From: Leptonema illini DSM 21528
Lineage (GTDB): Bacteria; Spirochaetota; Leptospiria; Leptospirales; Leptonemataceae
DNA: 64,000 nt
Direction of reading: 5' to 3'
Assembly: GCF_000243335.1 (NCBI RefSeq)
Contig: NZ_JH597773.1
Coordinates: forward strand, 3,528,156 to 3,592,155
Below are positions 4,442 through 64,000 of this stretch, piece by piece. Made by a program: the position numbers and the translations under genes. The notes beneath the pieces are model-generated. The model saw only the letters and a program-made list of their open reading frames with translations. It searched no databases and was not told where the DNA came from. Each line of letters begins with the position of its first letter. Position 1 is the stretch's first letter.

Positions 4442-6601
4442 ATGAAGATGGCTTCACGATCCCTGCGAGAAATACCGGGCGGCGTTCTGGCGACCCTGCT
4501 CGGCATTCCCAAAAGCATCGCCCTGGGGATCGTCGCCCTCGCCCCTCTGGGCTCTGCCTTTACGGCCGTCGGCCCATTTGCCGGATTGGTTTCGCTTGCC
4601 GCCGGTAATTTCGCCACGCCCAGCCGCCGCGGCGGCTCCGTCGTCAACAGCGGGCCCTATTCCGTCTCGGCGCTGATGCTCGCCTCGGCGGCGACTACGT
4701 TTTCGCTCACGCATCCGCCCGACGTCGCCTTCCAGCTTCTTCTGCTCGTCGTGCTTTTATCGGGTGTGATTCAGCTGCTCCTGGGCCTGCTGCGTTTCGG
4801 CACGATTGCCAAGTATATTCCGTATCCGGTTTTCTCTGGCCTGATGAACGGCAGCGCCATCCTCATCCTTCTGCCGCAGGTGAAGCCTATCTTCAATGCG
4901 ACGCCGGCCCTTCTGTTAAAAGATCCTTCGGTTCTGCTTTCGCAGACGACGCTGCTATCGGTCGCAGCCGCTACGTTAACCGTCCTCGCATACGCCCTTA
5001 CGAGACGTCTGAATCGCTCGGCCGTACCGCCTGCCTTTATTGCCGTCATCGTCGGATCGCTCGGTTTTCACGCCGCTGCGTATCTCGGCAGCATCTCCGT
5101 TAGCGAACTGTTAGTCGGACGAATTCCAACGGGCATTCCACTGCCCCGCCTGTTTGCATCTGCCTCAGAGGATCTTCTCTCACTACAGACATGGCAGACG
5201 CTTGCGCTTCCGGTCGCCTCTTTTGCGACCAGTATTGCGCTCATTAATAGTCTGAGCTCGTTTCTTGCGCAGAGCTTCTCTGATACCTTGTGTCGCGAGC
5301 GAACCGATCCAAACGCCGAGCTGCTAAACCAGGGATCGGCTAACCTTCTCTCTGCCGTATTCGGCGGCCTGCCCGCTGCCGGATCCTCCAGCCGCTCGAA
5401 AGCCGCCTACGATTACGGCGCACGCACGCGAGCCTCTCGCCTTGCGGGCGGACTTTTCGCCGTCCTTGTCCTCGTCTGGGCCGGACCGCTTTTTGCGCCC
5501 ATCCCGCTTTCCGTAATGGGTGGCGTGCTTCTGATTCTCGCCTATGGCCTCTTTGATCGCTGGCTGCTGCTACAGATCGTCGAGCTTATGAAACAGCGCG
5601 ATCGTCGTGAGATTGCGACGAACATCGGCATCTCGCTTCTCGTCACGGTCGTCATGGTCGCCGTCGGCATGGTCGAGGCCGTCGTTACCGGAGTTCTGCT
5701 CTCCGTCGTCATCTTCGTAACGACGATGAGCCGCGGGATTATCCGAAGGGAGTTCTCGGGCCTCAGCATGCGATCCAATACGGAGCGTCCGCGTCGCGAA
5801 ACGGACATCCTCGACCGAGAAGGCGACGCCATCCGCATCATCGAACTGGAAGGCTACCTCTATTTCGGAACGGCCGACGATTTCCTGCTGCGCACCGACG
5901 TCCTCTTACGAGAAGGCGCTCGTCACATCATCCTTGACGTTCATCATCTGAAAAGCGTCGACATCTCGGGCCTTGTCGTCGTCGATCAGGCATACGAACG
6001 CTGCCGCGATGCCGGGGCCCGTCTTGCCATCGTCTCGCCCGTGCGCTCTCCGCTTCGCGAGAAGTCTCAGCTCAGCGGTCTTGTGTATGATTACCTTGAC
6101 GATGCCCTGGCCGCCGCCGAAGATCTGTTGATCGACAGCGCCGGCGAAAGCGAGCACGACACATCGATCACGCTTGCAGAGGTCGACATCCTCTCAGAAT
6201 TCACGCCCGCCGAGCTCGCGCAGCTTGAGCCGTATCTGACGTTTCAGAGCTATGCGGACGGCACGAAAGTATTAACCGAAGGAGAGGCCGGCGACTCCGT
6301 ATTTATGATCGCCGCAGGCCGGGCCGAGCTGTACACGACGACGGATGGCCTGTATCATTGCTATTATCGCCTGAGTCGGGGCACCGTTTTCGGCGAGATG
6401 GCGATGATCGACGGCCGCCCCCGCTCGGCCGACGTGCTTGCTGCAGGCACGCTCAGCTGCTGGGTGCTGACGATGGAACGCCTGAACCGGCTAAAGCAGG
6501 AGCATCCGGATGTCGCCTACCGCGTCATGACGGGCGTCGCCGCGCTGCTTTCACGCAGAATACGGATCAATCTGAATATTATTTCGCAGTACAGGAAGTA
6601 G
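4442..6601 (+). CDS. SulP-family anion transporter with STAS and cyclic-nucleotide-binding domains
   Basis: 719 aa, three parts. Residues about 10-430 are the SulP membrane domain (GIPKSIALGIVALAPLG near the N-terminus, YIPYPVFSGLMNGSAILIL, then FGGLPAAGSSSRSKA). Residues about 460-570 are a STAS domain (RIIELEGYLYFGTADDF and HHLKSVDISGLVVVDQ). Residues about 585-715 are a Crp-type cNMP fold (GTKVLTEGEAGDSVFMIAAG, GTVFGEMAMIDGRPRSADV). Known SulP proteins carry sulfate, bicarbonate or dicarboxylates; the substrate here is not predictable. The C-terminal domain suggests gating by cAMP or a similar ligand. Start near 4442 or 4448. Tail to tail with the restriction gene. Confidence 0.9.
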   Translation: MKMASRSLREIPGGVLATLLGIPKSIALGIVALAPLGSAFTAVGPFAGLVSLAAGNFATPSRRGGSVVNSGPYSVSALMLASAATTFSLTHPPDVAFQLLLLVVLLSGVIQLLLGLLRFGTIAKYIPYPVFSGLMNGSAILILLPQVKPIFNATPALLLKDPSVLLSQTTLLSVAAATLTVLAYALTRRLNRSAVPPAFIAVIVGSLGFHAAAYLGSISVSELLVGRIPTGIPLPRLFASASEDLLSLQTWQTLALPVASFATSIALINSLSSFLAQSFSDTLCRERTDPNAELLNQGSANLLSAVFGGLPAAGSSSRSKAAYDYGARTRASRLAGGLFAVLVLVWAGPLFAPIPLSVMGGVLLILAYGLFDRWLLLQIVELMKQRDRREIATNIGISLLVTVVMVAVGMVEAVVTGVLLSVVIFVTTMSRGIIRREFSGLSMRSNTERPRRETDILDREGDAIRIIELEGYLYFGTADDFLLRTDVLLREGARHIILDVHHLKSVDISGLVVVDQAYERCRDAGARLAIVSPVRSPLREKSQLSGLVYDYLDDALAAAEDLLIDSAGESEHDTSITLAEVDILSEFTPAELAQLEPYLTFQSYADGTKVLTEGEAGDSVFMIAAGRAELYTTTDGLYHCYYRLSRGTVFGEMAMIDGRPRSADVLAAGTLSCWVLTMERLNRLKQEHPDVAYRVMTGVAALLSRRIRINLNIISQYRK

Positions 6602-46894: not shown

Positions 46895-48272
46895 GATTAT
46901 GTCCCGAATTTAGTTAGAGTTTGAAAAGGCGGAACCCTGGCCCAAAGTGGGCCGAACACCACATTCCCTTACGGAGGGTTCCAGATGAAGAAGAACGAAC
47001 GGGCAGAAACCAGTCAAACACAAAGCCTTACGGCCGAAGGTTTTCGGGATTATATTCGAACCAGCCTCGATGCTCGAGTGCGCGAATTTGCACTCGGTTA
47101 CGTAGGAGCTTTGATTCTCGAAGAAATCGAAACGTTATGCGGCAAGACAGGGGAGCATAAGAGAGGCCGTGGTCTTGCCCATCGAGGCGGCAGCCAGCGT
47201 GGTTCCATTGTGCTCGATGGTGAAAGGGTGGCCATCCAGAGGCCCAGAGCTCGAAGCAATGGCAAGGAAGTGAAGCTGGAGCGATATGAGATCCTTCAGG
47301 ATCGCTCTGATCTTCGCGAGCATGTTGAGCGCCTGATGCTGGCAGGCATCAGCACCCGGAACTATGAAAAGACGCTGAGAAAGACAGAAGCCTCTCTCGG
47401 CCTTTCGCGGAGTGCGGTTTCGCGGGAGTTTGTGAAGTCCAGCCGTGAGTCGCTCAATCATTTGAATTCACGCAGGTTTCCTGATCAGACATTCTGGTGT
47501 ATTGTTCTTGATGGCATCGTATTCGGCGGCTCTGTCGTAATCGTTGCTCTCGGGGTCGATACGGCCGGAAACAAGCATTTTCTGGGCATTTCTGAGGGGT
47601 CTACAGAGAATGCTGATAGCGCACTCAGTGTCCTTCAATCAATCGAGAGCCGTGATATCCGCTTCACAGATCGTGTGCTTGTCGTCATGGATGGATCAAA
47701 GGCTCTTGAAAAAGCGGCCAGAGAGTTCTTCGGAAAGAAGGCAGAGATCCAACTCTGCTACCTTCATAAACAGAGAAATGTTCTTGCCAAGCTCCCACGA
47801 AAGTATCATACAGAATTCTGCAAGAGATACAAGCAGGCATTCAGTGCAAACAGTTACGAAGATGTCGCAAGCGAGATGCGGTCCGTTCTATCATGGCTCG
47901 AATCCATCAGCTACAGTGCCTCCCAGAGCCTTCAGGAGGGCTTAGAGACGCTGTTAACGCTGCATCGCATCAATATGCCGCCGAAGTTGAGAACATCCTT
48001 CTACACAACCAATCTGATCGATTCGGCATTTTCGAATCCCAGGTCTCAGCTTAACCGGGTTAAACGGTCAAGGCCGCAGACAGACCAGGTGCTCCGATGG
48101 GTCGGTAGTCTCCTGCTATCACAGGAGGAACAATTCCGTAAGGTGCGGTCATACACTCACATCCATGAGTTCTTAAACACCTTCCTGGATAAAAAGATTG
48201 ACGAGCGGATCTCGGCATAGGATGCATTCAGTGGGTCCCGCCTCAAAGTCTAACTATCACTGGGACATAGTC
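46895..48272 (+). mobile_element. IS256-family insertion sequence
   Basis: About 1378 bp. Terminal inverted repeats share TATGTCCC and, further in, TAGTTAGA-TTTGA-GGCGG-ACC. Direct repeats CTGAAATCT lie at 46886-46894 and 48273-48281. One transposase gene. Complete and probably mobile. Confidence 0.92.
46985..48220 (+). CDS. IS256-family transposase
   Basis: 411 aa DDE transposase of the mutator type. Catalytic Asp residues in FWCIVLDGIVFGG and VLVVMDGSKALEKA; the conserved CYLHKQRNVLAKLP block follows, and the C-terminal Glu region is in the segment with FYTTNLIDSAFSNPR. GGAGG lies 7 bp before the ATG. Intact, so it could move itself. Confidence 0.93.
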   Translation: MKKNERAETSQTQSLTAEGFRDYIRTSLDARVREFALGYVGALILEEIETLCGKTGEHKRGRGLAHRGGSQRGSIVLDGERVAIQRPRARSNGKEVKLERYEILQDRSDLREHVERLMLAGISTRNYEKTLRKTEASLGLSRSAVSREFVKSSRESLNHLNSRRFPDQTFWCIVLDGIVFGGSVVIVALGVDTAGNKHFLGISEGSTENADSALSVLQSIESRDIRFTDRVLVVMDGSKALEKAAREFFGKKAEIQLCYLHKQRNVLAKLPRKYHTEFCKRYKQAFSANSYEDVASEMRSVLSWLESISYSASQSLQEGLETLLTLHRINMPPKLRTSFYTTNLIDSAFSNPRSQLNRVKRSRPQTDQVLRWVGSLLLSQEEQFRKVRSYTHIHEFLNTFLDKKIDERISA

Positions 48273-55841: not shown

Positions 55842-55943
55842 AAGCCTGCCTTTCATCGCTTTCCGTATATCCCTGAGCTCGATCCTGCAATCTCTGCAAA
55901 CATCTGTCAATCAAACTTCATCCGCACAGGTAGCCTGCTCCTC

Positions 55944-56019
55944 TCTGCGCCTTCCTTCTCTGCGCCTTCCTTCTCTGCGCCTTCCTTCTCTGCGCCTTCC
56001 TTCTCTGCGCCCGCCTTCT
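55944..56019. repeat. Tandem 15-bp repeat
   Basis: CTGCGCCTTCCTTCT repeated four times in a row, then a diverged fifth unit, followed by a C/T-rich tract up to 56110. It lies between the membrane-protein pair and mnmE and codes for nothing that I can support. Confidence 0.8.
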
Positions 56020-56110
56020 CCGTGCCCGCCGCGCTCGCTGAGGTTTACCCCTCTCTCTGAGCCCCCGCCTTCTCCGCGCACTCTGCTCCCTCCGCGGTTA
56101 ACCCCTCCCC

Positions 56111-57508
56111 TCACTTACCCACACAGAAAACCGAGAAGATCCGCCCCAGGATATCTTCAGTCGTGATCTCGCCCGTAATATCGGCAGCATTCTGCAAGGC
56201 CGTATCGATCTCAAGGGCGCAGATCTCGTCGGGAGCGCCGTCAGACCAGAGCGAGAGCAGCCGTTGCAGCGCCTCTCGCATCGCCTGAAAGTGATGGCGA
56301 TGCCGCTCCTCAAGTAAAAAAGGATCGAGACCGCCCGGCTCTTCTTCAAGGTGCGAGACGATGCGCTTGTGCAGAAGGTCCACGCCCTCGCCGGTTTTAC
56401 ATGAGATGCGAATCAGCTCAAAAGTCCCGTTGCGGCGGATGCCGTCAAAATACGAATCCTCATGCGCCTTTTCATGCAGGATATCGACCTTGTTTAAAAC
56501 GTGGATGATCTTCTTCGATTCGGATGATTGAGAAAGTTCGTATTCGAGCGCCTCGTTAATCTCGATGCTTTCGCGCGATCCGTCGATCAGATGCAGAATC
56601 AGCTGGCTGCGCTTCATCTCTTCAATCGACCGTCGTATTCCCTCGCGCTCGATGCTATCTTCGGTTAGTCGAAGGCCTGCCGTATCGATAAAGCGCACGC
56701 GGAACTCGCCCAGCTCCACGTCTTCGCTCACATAGTCTCGCGTCGTGCCGTGAACGTCCGAGACGATAGAACGATCCCATCCGAGGAGGCGATTCAACAG
56801 AGAAGACTTGCCTGCATTTGTCACGCCGATCAGGGCGATGCGAAAGCCTTCGCTCACGCGCTGCGCCGCTCCGCTGCGGGCAAGAATATCGTCGATCTGT
56901 TGCAGCAGGTCATGCACGCGACGCCGGCGAGCGTCCTTCGATTCGAAGGTCAGGTCTTCGTCCGAGAAGTCGACTTCGGCCTCGGTCTCAGCCTTCAGAT
57001 TCATGAGCGCCGATCGGAATCTTGCGATCGAGCGCTTCAGCTCGCCGCTGTATAACCTCTGTGCGCCCTGGAGCTCGTATTGCGAACGCGCATCGATGAT
57101 GCGTCTGACCGACTCGGCCGTCGTCAGATCCATGCGTCCGTTTTGAAAGGCACGTCGCGTGAATTCTCCCGCAAGGGCGGGACGGATGCCCAGTTTCTCA
57201 GAAAGCTCGGTTAACAGTCGACGTACGATGAGCGGCGAACCGTGCAAGAAGATCTCGGCGCAATCTTCCCCCGTATAAGAGTGCGGTCCCGGAAAATAAA
57301 CGGCCAGGCCGTCGTCGATAAAGACGTCGTCAGAACGGACGTCCACCCGCGTCATCACGCGGGGTCGTTCGATAGCGGACGGGCCCTTCGTTATACAGAA
57401 GCGCCGCACCGCTTCGGCCGTCGCCGGCCCCGAGATGCGCACGACGGCGATGGCCCCTCTTCCGGGGGCCGTCGATAAGGCGGCGATCGTGTCTCGTTCC
57501 TGTATCAT
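56111..57508 (-). CDS. mnmE: tRNA modification GTPase MnmE
   Basis: 465 aa. With MnmG it makes the 5-(carboxymethyl)aminomethyl group on U34 of some tRNAs. N-terminal folate-binding domain (MIQERDTIAALSTAPGRGAI), then an inserted G domain: G1 GVTNAGKSSLLN, G2 TTRDYVSEDVEL, G3 DTAGLR, G4 NKVD, and the terminal CVGK whose Cys is essential in the family. Full length. Follows jag on the same strand after a hairpin terminator. Confidence 0.97.
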   Translation of the reverse strand: MIQERDTIAALSTAPGRGAIAVVRISGPATAEAVRRFCITKGPSAIERPRVMTRVDVRSDDVFIDDGLAVYFPGPHSYTGEDCAEIFLHGSPLIVRRLLTELSEKLGIRPALAGEFTRRAFQNGRMDLTTAESVRRIIDARSQYELQGAQRLYSGELKRSIARFRSALMNLKAETEAEVDFSDEDLTFESKDARRRRVHDLLQQIDDILARSGAAQRVSEGFRIALIGVTNAGKSSLLNRLLGWDRSIVSDVHGTTRDYVSEDVELGEFRVRFIDTAGLRLTEDSIEREGIRRSIEEMKRSQLILHLIDGSRESIEINEALEYELSQSSESKKIIHVLNKVDILHEKAHEDSYFDGIRRNGTFELIRISCKTGEGVDLLHKRIVSHLEEEPGGLDPFLLEERHRHHFQAMREALQRLLSLWSDGAPDEICALEIDTALQNAADITGEITTEDILGRIFSVFCVGK

Positions 57509-60868: not shown

Positions 60869-61024
60869 TCACTTACGATGCGTGGAGCTGGAAACGGTCA
60901 GACGCATACGGCCTTTTTTGCGACGGTTCGCAAGAACCTTGCGTCCGCCCGAAGTTGACATACGAGAACGGAAGCCATGCGTGCGCAGACGGGAGATATT
61001 ACCGGGTTGGAAAGTACGTTTCAT
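60869..61024 (-). CDS. rpmH: Ribosomal protein L34
   Basis: 51 aa: [40 protein letters not shown]. Typical L34, slightly longer than the usual 44-47 residues. The rnpA ribosome site follows its stop directly. Divergent from dnaA, as at many bacterial origins. Confidence 0.96.
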
Positions 61025-61202: not shown

Positions 61203-62333
61203 ATGTCGGGCGCCTTACATGGACGCCCCTATCCACCGGAGGAAACACGGTTGGCTCAAAGCGACCTATCACGGCCTACTTCAAAATCCGAACCGGACAG
61301 CCTCATTCGTCCGGCCGGATTGCCCGAGCGCGCCTCACCGCGCACGCTGCAGTCCCTCTATGTGGACCGACACGGCGCTCCTATCCTCGATACGTTGCAG
61401 ACGGCGCTCAAGAAACCGGGGCTGCTTTCTCCGATTATCTTTTATGGCCCGGCCGGCACGGGAAAGACGCATCTTTTACAGGGACTTGAAAGCGACGCCC
61501 GCAGCCGCAAGCTCAGCGTCTATCATCTGTCTTTTTCAAGCGGCATCGACACTCCGGCCGCATTGCATGATCTTCTTCTCATCGATGGCCTGCATCATTT
61601 CCCGACGCTCAGCGCCGAGAAGCAGGATGAGTTCTCTATTCTTTTTGAGCGACACTTTGAAAGCCGCAAACAGATCTTCGCATCCACCGAAATCGAAATC
61701 GGCGATCTCGAACTGCCCGACCGGCTTCAGAGCCGCATCCTATCCGGCCTGACGCTTGAGCTGCGACTTCCCGAAGGCGAAGACCGCTTTGACTTTATTC
61801 AGAAGCGCCTGGGCGAGTTCGATATGCAGATCCCCGCCGAGCGTCTGCGAGCCCTGAATCTTCCTGAGAATCTTTCGTATCGCGACCTGGAGTCCGTTTC
61901 GGCGATGATCTTTCTCTATTCAAGAAACGGATGGAGCGACGCCCGTCTTGCCGAGGCCTTGCAGAATCGTTTTGCTCCTCAGGCGCAGAAGGAGCGGCCC
62001 ATCATTACGATCGAGCAGATCCTCGAAACGGTTCTGAAGCGTTTTTCGGTGACCCGCGAAGACCTGCTTGGCAAATCGAGACGGGCCGAGCATACGCTGC
62101 CCCGCCATATCGCCATGACCCTGGCGCAGGAATTCACCGGACTCAATAAATCCTCGATTGCGCGATTCTTTCAGCGCAGCGATCACTCCGTCGTCATCCA
62201 CGCCGTGAAGAAGATGCAGGATTCCCTGCGCACAGAACCGACCTTGAAGCAGCTCTACGACAGGCTGCTCAAAGACCTCGGACTTTCCGTCAACGGCCGT
62301 CATGGCTCCCATGGCTCCAACGGAAGGCGTTGA
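61203..62333 (+). CDS. dnaA: Chromosomal replication initiator DnaA (short form)
   Basis: 376 aa, against about 440-470 in most bacteria. ATPase domain III: FYGPAGTGKTHLLQGLE (Walker A), LLLIDGLHHF (Walker B, where DD or DE is usual). Domain IV: GKSRRAEHTLPRHIAMTLAQ, IARFFQRSDHSVVIHAVKK, the DNA-binding helix. The first about 60 residues show nothing like domain I, which in other bacteria recruits helicase and DnaA partners. AGGA lies 8 nt before the ATG. Placement before dnaN confirms identity. Confidence 0.93.
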   Translation: MSGALHGRPYPPEETRLAQSDLSRPTSKSEPDSLIRPAGLPERASPRTLQSLYVDRHGAPILDTLQTALKKPGLLSPIIFYGPAGTGKTHLLQGLESDARSRKLSVYHLSFSSGIDTPAALHDLLLIDGLHHFPTLSAEKQDEFSILFERHFESRKQIFASTEIEIGDLELPDRLQSRILSGLTLELRLPEGEDRFDFIQKRLGEFDMQIPAERLRALNLPENLSYRDLESVSAMIFLYSRNGWSDARLAEALQNRFAPQAQKERPIITIEQILETVLKRFSVTREDLLGKSRRAEHTLPRHIAMTLAQEFTGLNKSSIARFFQRSDHSVVIHAVKKMQDSLRTEPTLKQLYDRLLKDLGLSVNGRHGSHGSNGRR

Positions 62334-62338
62334 AAACC

Positions 62339-62544
62339 TGTGAGATTCCTGCCTGCGATGTGAGATCTTCGGGTATCCCGTGTGACATAATGCAGCGGGC
62401 CCGAGTCATCACTGTGAGAGATTATGTCACACGGCTTGACTTCCAGCCTGTGTGAGTTTTTTTTCTCACAGCGATCTAACTTTCCATTGTGCGACGAATT
62501 CCCGGGAAAAACTTGGATCGGCCCTGTTTTCGGGATTTCTCACA
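62339..62544. repeat. TGTGAG-type iterons between dnaA and dnaN (candidate oriC)
   Basis: Eight TGTGA(G/C)-type units in 206 bp, on both strands: 62339, 62359, 62381, 62413, 62425-62431 (reverse), 62451, 62464-62470 (reverse), 62538-62544 (reverse). They are followed by an AT-rich stretch (62558-62580). I see no TTATCCACA DnaA box here. The position after dnaA fits an origin. Confidence 0.55.
62378..62434. repeat. 14-bp inverted repeat inside the dnaA-dnaN gap
   Basis: CCGTGTGACATAAT (62378-62391) and its exact complement ATTATGTCACACGG (62421-62434), 29 bp apart, with another TGTGAGA unit between them. Likely the core of the origin or of a dnaN operator. Confidence 0.6.
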
Positions 62545-62589
62545 AACTCACGGCATCAATAACAACAAATACAATAAACAGAGGATCCT

Positions 62590-63702
62590 ATGAAATTCAT
62601 TGTAAACAAACAGAACTTCCTCAAAGCCCTGTCTTCCATCGAAGGAATCATCTCATCGCGTGAAATCCGGTCTCCGATCGGCAACGTTCTTATCGAATCG
62701 AAGAAAGACGGCATCGATCTGACGTCGACCGACCTTGAGATGACGCTCAAGACGTCCACCGACGCCAACGTACTCGAACCCGGTAAGATCCTTCTGCCGG
62801 CGCGCAAGCTTTCGCAGACCATTCGCGAATTCCGTTACGAGAATATCGAGTTTCACGTAGAAGACGTGAAGGTTCGCATCCATGACGCCGACAGCAAAGG
62901 CAAGACAGAGATCGAGATCATGGGATCGCCCGCAGATGAGTTTCAGGTGAAGCTGAATCAGGATAACCTCAAATTCGTCTCGCTGCCCCCGACGCTTGTC
63001 GCCGAGATGATCGACCGCACCTCATACGCCGTCGCCGAAGAAGACAGCCGTTTCGCCTTTAACGGTCTCTACATCGAAGACCGTGACGGCAGCCTGAACG
63101 CCGTCGGCACAGACGGCCGCCGTCTGTCCTTTGCCACACGCAAACCAGGCGAGATCATCAGCACCGAAGGCGGTATCATCGTTCCGGTAAAGGCTGTGCG
63201 CGAGCTGCGCAAGCTGCTTTCGGCATCTGACGTCTTTGCTATGGCCGTCGAGAAATCCGAGAATACCGTGCATTTTCGTTTGAAAGACGTGATCTTTATT
63301 ACGCGACTGATCGATTCGAATTATCCGGATTATACGCAGGTCATTCCGAAAAAGGCCGAATACGCCATTCTGCTGAACCGCGAGGATTTCAGACTGGCGA
63401 TCAAACAGGCGTCGGTTCTGGCCGCCGAGCCATCGCGTCAGATTCAGCTTTCTTTCATTAAGGGAGAGGTGCGCGTCATCGCCTCCACACCCGACGTCGG
63501 ACGCGTCGAAGATACGGTTCCCTGCAATTATGAAGGCGAGCCGTTAACCATCGCCTTCAACTCCAACTTCCTCTCTGACGTGCTTGGCGTTATCAAATCC
63601 GAGCAGGTTGAGATGCATCTGAGTTCGTCTTCGGCGCCGGCCGTGATGATGGATATGGAAGATCGCGATTTCAAAGCCGTTATCATGCCGATGCGCCTGT
63701 AA
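62590..63702 (+). CDS. dnaN: DNA polymerase III beta subunit (sliding clamp)
   Basis: 370 aa. Three-domain clamp: MKFIVNKQNFLKALSSIEGI, RKLSQTIREFRYENIEFHVE, FNGLYIEDRDGSLNAVGTDG (RRLS), SNYPDYTQVIPKK, and the C-terminus PAVMMDMEDRDFKAVIMPMR. Holds polymerase on DNA. It follows the candidate origin. GAGGATCCT precedes the ATG. Confidence 0.97.
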   Translation: MKFIVNKQNFLKALSSIEGIISSREIRSPIGNVLIESKKDGIDLTSTDLEMTLKTSTDANVLEPGKILLPARKLSQTIREFRYENIEFHVEDVKVRIHDADSKGKTEIEIMGSPADEFQVKLNQDNLKFVSLPPTLVAEMIDRTSYAVAEEDSRFAFNGLYIEDRDGSLNAVGTDGRRLSFATRKPGEIISTEGGIIVPVKAVRELRKLLSASDVFAMAVEKSENTVHFRLKDVIFITRLIDSNYPDYTQVIPKKAEYAILLNREDFRLAIKQASVLAAEPSRQIQLSFIKGEVRVIASTPDVGRVEDTVPCNYEGEPLTIAFNSNFLSDVLGVIKSEQVEMHLSSSSAPAVMMDMEDRDFKAVIMPMRL

Positions 63703-63715
63703 GATTCGACCGTCT

Positions 63716-64000
63716 ATGGAGATACGCTCGCTCGAACTGCATAACTTCCGTAACTACGAGCGAGCCTCTCTGCGTTTTGAAGAAAAGCTCAACTTCTTCG
63801 TCGGCGAGAATGCTTCGGGTAAAACGTCGCTGCTTGAGGCCCTTGCCTATATATCTCTCGGTCGCTCGTTTCGCGGAGTCAACGACGCCGACCTGATACG
63901 GCAGGGCGAGAAGCATTTCTTTATTCGCTGTGAGCTGCGTGATCGAAACGATCACGTCACCCGTTTTGAGGTGGGCGTCGAAACGGGACCATCGTCACGT
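63716..64000 (+). CDS. recF: DNA replication and repair protein RecF (partial, runs off right edge)
   Basis: First 95 residues. LELHNFRNYERASLRFEEKL, Walker A GENASGKTSLLEALAYIS, then RSFRG, the usual RecF start. Loads RecA at gaps. 13 bp after dnaN, in the standard dnaA-dnaN-recF order. Confidence 0.95.
   Translation, partial: MEIRSLELHNFRNYERASLRFEEKLNFFVGENASGKTSLLEALAYISLGRSFRGVNDADLIRQGEKHFFIRCELRDRNDHVTRFEVGVETGPSSR

Follow-up and report, generated by a model that had tools for sequence, protein, structure and literature searches.

The dnaA1–dnaN intergenic region

The window analyzed here is a stretch of 64,000 nucleotides from the genome of Leptonema illini (4,522,760 bases in three contigs, of which contig 1 comprises 4,325,094). 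Near its right end lie rpmH (ribosomal protein bL34, 60881–61024, minus strand, assigned by sequence), dnaA1 (61203–62333, plus strand), dnaN (the DNA polymerase III beta clamp, 62590–63702, plus strand) and the start of recF (63716–64000, plus strand, cut by the window end and assigned by position and sequence). The origin-linked DnaA encoded by dnaA1 is, as a first-pass annotation of this DNA had noted, short and divergent: its 376 aa contain neither domain I nor the ISM helices, and its Walker B motif reads D-G. Further upstream in the window, the minus strand of 55911–56114 carries a low-complexity run of repeated RREGR in an ORF downstream of an mnmE-like gene, which probably encodes no protein.

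The 256-bp gap between dnaA1 and dnaN (62334–62589) contains eight TGTGA units in both orientations, a number obtained independently by recounting, with starts at 62339, 62359, 62381, 62413 and 62451 on the plus strand and, as TCACA, at 62427, 62466 and 62540 for the minus strand. The next letter is G or C in every case (TGTGAS). When the units are read as DnaA boxes, five lie on the minus strand: AATCTCACA (iteron 1, 62339–62347), GATCTCACA (iteron 2, 62359–62367), TATGTCACA (iteron 3, 62381–62389), TCTCTCACA (iteron 4, 62413–62421) and AAACTCACA (iteron 6, 62451–62459). The plus strand carries a second copy of TATGTCACA (iteron 5, 62423–62431) and two of TTTCTCACA (iteron 7, 62462–62470, and iteron 8, 62536–62544, the box closest to the AT-rich stretch that adjoins dnaN). 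Iterons 3 and 5 lie in the left and right arms (62378–62391 and 62421–62434) of a perfect 14-bp inverted repeat, CCGTGTGACATAAT / ATTATGTCACACGG, with a 29-nt spacer (62378–62434 overall); iteron 3 overlaps the word GACATAAT. The eight TGTGA(G/C) units, the exact inverted repeat holding two of them and the adjacent AT-rich stretch had all been described in the first-pass annotation and stand as described, save that the most AT-rich 35 bp (62555–62589) lie just beyond the segment it covered.

Such a density of units is peculiar to this site. The gap holds eight TCACA where 0.31 would be expected on the frequencies in an 878-kb sample of this genome, and six CTCACA where the genome sample predicts 0.06. 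The next richest 256-bp window of the 878-kb sample has five TCACA, or three when STCACA is counted, and none of 300 dinucleotide shuffles of the gap reached eight. Across the whole 4.52-Mb genome the pattern TGTGAS-N4-34-TGTGAS has 18 matches; five of them fall inside a stretch of about 130 bp in the dnaA1–dnaN gap, and elsewhere there is never more than one match per place. The evenly spaced direct repeats beside a rep gene that characterize a plasmid-type (Rep) iteron origin were not found, the spacings here being 20, 22, 32, 14, 24, 15 and 74 in mixed orientation and the neighbours being rpmH, dnaA, dnaN and recF.

Probable location of the chromosomal origin

GC skew was calculated for sampled segments amounting to about 1 Mb of sequence on the draft scaffold (contig 1), where the gap lies at 3.5905 Mb. 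Skew is negative in the sampled segments between 1.53 and 3.592 Mb, apart from one near zero. From 3.598 Mb on, the sampled segments up to the end of the scaffold are positive; skew at third codon positions runs in the same direction. The sign also switches at the dnaN-upstream region of three relatives (G005, G013 and G020). Because the sampled skew passes from negative to positive at the gap, as at a DnaA-dependent oriC, the dnaA1–dnaN gap is very probably the oriC of the L. illini chromosome, and the candidate origin proposed from the sequence, for which GC skew had been suggested as a check, is thereby upheld. The cluster of TCACA-type units, although non-consensus as boxes, is the second property of such an origin found here.

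Contig 1 carries two further sign changes, with a negative block from 0 to 1.18 Mb and a positive block from 1.19 to 1.52 Mb, which do not agree with a single origin and terminus. An inverted 1.18-Mb block or a scaffold misorder, whether real or a product of scaffolding, would explain the extra blocks, and inverting the 1.18-Mb block would make the two replication arms nearly equal in length. The skew change near 1.18 Mb was considered as a second origin and rejected, there being no iteron cluster at that place. The locus of the second dnaA gene described below was likewise discarded as an origin: no skew change occurs there in L. illini, G005, G013 or G020.

Relationship of the units to DnaA boxes

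Neither the dnaA1–dnaN gap nor the rpmH–dnaA gap contains a canonical DnaA box (no match to TTWTNCACA), as had been noticed at first reading. The units nevertheless look like DnaA boxes, to judge from their letters, since the CACA core and the T at position 5 are kept; TCACA, with T at position 5, is a form of the box proved in Epsilonproteobacteria (PMC5043019). In relatives, where conservation had been named as a check in the first-pass annotation, TCACA-type boxes are present upstream of dnaN, and within this same region they grade into normal DnaA boxes, with TTATCCACA in G006 and G008, TTATTCACA in G002, G018 and G020, TTTTTCACA in G010, G012 and the genomes of genus g2, and also AATTTCACA. 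What sets L. illini apart is position 4, which is C or G in all eight boxes as against 16 of 64 TCACA boxes from relatives, where T is found in 44 of 64 (Fisher p = 6e-5 for the shift, a guide only, as the boxes are not independent). The boxes of Helicobacter pylori and Arcobacter butzleri share T5, the TCAC core and a DnaA serine aligned with T435, but have T at position 4 (PMC5043019).

The change of DnaA recognition proposed in the first-pass annotation thus survives in reduced form. The move of position 4 to C/G is lineage-specific, while TCACA itself is a known form of the box and DnaA1 retains the residues aligned with E. coli R399, D433, H434 and H439. We regard the change as real but modest, small and confined to a single position, with no wholly new recognition sequence, and the TGTGAS units would work like DnaA boxes even though they lie outside the consensus.

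The same letters can be read as sites for other proteins. TGTGA is the CRP half-site and two L. illini proteins match the Crp HTH family, so that the units might be CRP/FNR-type half-sites regulating dnaN or dnaA, with no origin present, and binding by a CRP-type protein had been raised at first reading. We consider this highly improbable: the gap contains no TGTGA-N6-TCACA (facing units are 9 and 10 apart), all four such sites in the genome lie elsewhere, and the region coincides with the skew switch. A further alternative, compatible with an origin and in our estimate possible though on the unlikely side, is that a separate regulator recognizes GACATAAT and controls dnaA or dnaN, with the inverted repeat as an operator overlapping the DnaA boxes. 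Copies of GACATAAT/ATTATGTC precede dnaA2 in most of the family and several dnaA genes of the neighbouring family f2, and in both families the word is also present upstream of dnaN; of its 35 sampled occurrences in L. illini the majority fall between genes. An operator of this kind would, however, account for just two of the eight iterons, and its regulator is purely putative.

The two copies in the gap, both within the inverted repeat, lie at 62384–62391 and 62421–62428. Others are found at 6186–6193 and 6235–6242 of locus L033 and upstream of dnaN in L138 and L142, and in the two families they often form inverted pairs upstream of dnaA2 (or dnaA) and dnaN. The dnaN-upstream regions of family f2 contain no TCACA or CCACA boxes, TTATGTC words being present instead, and GACATAAT occurs there several times. 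The DnaA of this family (L068–L075, L138, L142) is missing the D433-aligned residue (-KHT). GACATAAT might be the sequence that f2 DnaA reads as its box, or it might belong to a different regulator, and the DnaA box of f2 has possibly changed more radically. Two longer words, GATTATGTCCCGAATTT and ATTCGGGACATAATC, recur in L. illini at 46896 and 48730 of the window, at L095 12694, L132 17371, L191 3416 and L196 3192, and at L201 9154 and 19322. In several cases the distance from the copy to an ORF end is 81 or 89 bp; the words may be the ends of a repeated or mobile element.

The AT-rich stretch next to dnaN

The candidate unwinding element is the most AT-rich 35 bp (62555–62589, 71% A+T), directly adjoining dnaN, and box 8 (62536–62544) is oriented toward it. 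The minus strand of 62558–62577 reads TTATT, TTGTA, TTGTT, TTGTT, TTATT. E. coli DnaA binds a single-stranded motif of this type, TT[G/A]T(T), on one strand (PMC10316083). Five TT[AG]T[AT] on the minus strand compare with a base-shuffle mean of 1.17, and 0.1% of shuffles reach five, a weak statistic in that the signal is driven by AT content; the stretch thus has both the AT richness and the known single-strand motif of an oriC unwinding element. The five motifs and the box facing them resemble the E. coli DUE, a system that uses IHF and the L/M/R repeats. At the place corresponding to box 8, relatives of genus g2 have TTTTTCACA-ATATCCACA (or similar)-GGCCC-AATAAAGTACAACAGTACA.

DnaA-trios were sought in the polarity given in PMC8235120 and PMC7561715, using the BUS test, for which three or more NAN trios of standard polarity must fall within 16 bp (PMC8287927). 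The longest run in the usual polarity (NTN) is one, and an eight-step NAN run is found in the opposite polarity, so the classic DnaA-trio was rejected. The region resembles oriC2 of B. subtilis in its rpmH-dnaA-dnaN-recF order, its skew switch and its box cluster followed by an AT-rich stretch adjoining dnaN, but differs in having no consensus box, no trio in the usual polarity and a degenerate linked DnaA.

Two DnaA proteins in L. illini

A second dnaA gene, dnaA2 (C1:2448323-2449639, 438 aa), lies 1.1 million bases from the gap. The two products differ in what each has kept. DnaA1 has a domain IV helix-turn-helix (PF08299, 73 bits against a cut-off of 31.5), but its AAA+ match covers 64 of 162 profile positions and scores 40.6 bits, and a profile search for domain I (PF11638, DnaA_N) gave no match. 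Alignment shows Walker A and the arginine finger to be kept; the ISM helices that should lie between the second and third strands are missing from alignment and model alike, and the AlphaFold2 model (mean pLDDT 81.8), whose best structural matches are DnaA structures, has only a loop at that place. DnaA1 has neither the ISM nor the Walker B DD of a complete AAA+ domain. Capture of single-stranded bases in B. subtilis is the task of the ISM, many of whose residues are essential (PMC10721633).

All three domains of DnaA2 score above cut-off (domain I 37.8, AAA+ 62.9 and domain IV 65.7 bits), and both the ISM segment and the Walker B DD are present, although an AAA+ score of 63 bits is low for a DnaA. 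Its domain IV has diverged, with K at the R399 position, Y at the H439 position and DHTG, and the recognition residues of DnaA1 are the more canonical. V at the T436 position (DHSVV) is unique to L. illini among the aligned DnaA1s of the family. This substitution was considered as the cause of the position-4 shift in the boxes and set aside, the association being a correlation and T436 not being among the listed base contacts (PMC5043019).

Chlamydiae are among the bacteria having two dnaA genes. They resemble L. illini in carrying two DnaA-family proteins per genome and differ in that here the origin-linked copy has decayed and is missing from the sister genus. The literature searched contained no report of two DnaAs in spirochetes, and dnaA goes unmentioned in the paper on the L. 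illini genome (PMC3746420).

DnaA1 and DnaA2 across the family

Origin-linked DnaA1 and unlinked DnaA2 are both present in 13 of the 20 other family members having a match, and a quickly built tree, in which some branches are very long, separates them into two supported groups. Their domains are of reciprocal quality: the AAA+ domain scores 97–163 bits in 12 of 14 family DnaA1s and 38–76 bits in the DnaA2s scanned, while a domain I (DnaA_N) match is found in 11 of 20 DnaA2s as against 2 of 14 DnaA1s. Since it is DnaA1 that has the better AAA+ domain in most relatives, it may have remained the initiator outside the Leptonema/g3 clade. In G005 the dnaA1 gene (G005:C2; L042 4159–5358) is similarly degraded, its product matching domain IV and, weakly, a generic AAA model but no DnaA AAA+ model; this is a second lineage with a decayed origin-linked DnaA.

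The sister of L. illini is genus g3, with support of 96 in the DnaN tree and 99 in the DnaA2 tree. The four g3 genomes and G010 yielded DnaA2 alone, with no DnaA1 found; rpmH directly adjoins dnaN in three of the four g3 genomes, and another gene lies upstream in the fourth. All four nonetheless keep 5–9 TCACA units upstream of dnaN, and in the one tested for skew (G020) the sign change remains at the dnaN-upstream region and is absent at dnaA2. The first-pass annotation had linked the unusual boxes with the short DnaA, a connection made doubtful both by the second, more complete DnaA and by these genomes, in which the units persist with the short protein gone. Genomes with a degraded or absent DnaA1 have 4–9 TCACA units and those with DnaA1 have 0–4 (Mann-Whitney p = 0.0006, for about three lineages, stretches of unequal length and one comparison genome with a DnaA1 fragment only), a difference that is suggestive only.

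A model for initiation in L. illini

The data presented above have led us to propose a model whereby the dnaA1–dnaN gap would serve as the DnaA-dependent oriC of the L. illini chromosome and the eight TGTGAS units as lineage-specific DnaA boxes, 5'-NWWSTCACA-3', in which position 4 has moved from T to C/G. DnaA bound to the boxes, the DUE-proximal one (62536–62544) facing 62555–62589, would open the duplex, probably by gripping the T-rich minus strand (TTATT/TTGTT/TTGTA). DnaA1 would be a decaying DnaA that has kept the box-binding domain IV and lost the helicase-contacting domain I and the ssDNA-gripping ISM. Opening and helicase loading would most likely be performed by DnaA2, DnaA1 being no more than a partner or competitor that binds the boxes. 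We infer that DnaA2 reads the boxes and opens the origin because DnaA1 has lost domain I, the ISM and one Walker B acid, and because the sister genus without dnaA1 keeps the TGTGA units, with the skew turning there in the one genome tested. The altered recognition helix of DnaA2 (K for R399, Y for H439, DHTG), its low AAA+ score and the more canonical recognition residues of DnaA1 argue against this assignment. The model as a whole, an oriC with variant boxes, opened by DnaA2 while DnaA1 decays, is in our judgment moderately probable.

Two other assignments of the proteins to the same origin have to be weighed. DnaA1 could itself be the initiator, co-evolved with its boxes as position 4 moved to C/G, leaving DnaA2 as an accessory protein or regulator. 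The origin-linked position of its gene, the retained R399-, D433-, H434- and H439-aligned residues, Walker A and arginine finger, and the coincidence of its unique V at the T436 position with the only box set that has S throughout at position 4 all accord with this, and B. subtilis DnaA fragments without domains I–II still separate strands (PMC10721633). That DnaA1 lacks the ISM helices and a Walker B acid, that T436 falls outside the base-contacting list cited above and that relatives without DnaA1 retain the units upstream of dnaN make this assignment decidedly unlikely. Alternatively, the two proteins could form a mixed complex in which DnaA1 docks on the boxes and DnaA2 supplies the ISM and domain I. 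The strong AAA+ domains of DnaA1s and the more frequent DnaA_N of DnaA2s accord with such a division of labour, but DnaA2 is the only DnaA found in g3 and G010, so that a partner is not universally needed, and we hold a mixed complex to be rather unlikely.

Within the preferred model, in which DnaA2 opens the origin, we tentatively suggest, at somewhat less than even confidence, that Leptonema is in the midst of initiator replacement: the linked DnaA has lost its ssDNA and helicase parts, its place at the unchanged origin and boxes has passed to a distant paralogue, and the sister genus has already deleted the old gene from its position next to dnaN. DnaA is usually treated as one protein per cell, encoded beside the origin. 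To assume that the dnaN-linked DnaA is the initiator, or to search for TTATCCACA, would both mislead in L. illini. If this spirochete family indeed has two differently decayed DnaAs, its members would be natural experiments on the domains that an origin needs, on the sharing of one origin by two DnaAs and on the exchange of an initiator while the origin stays in place.
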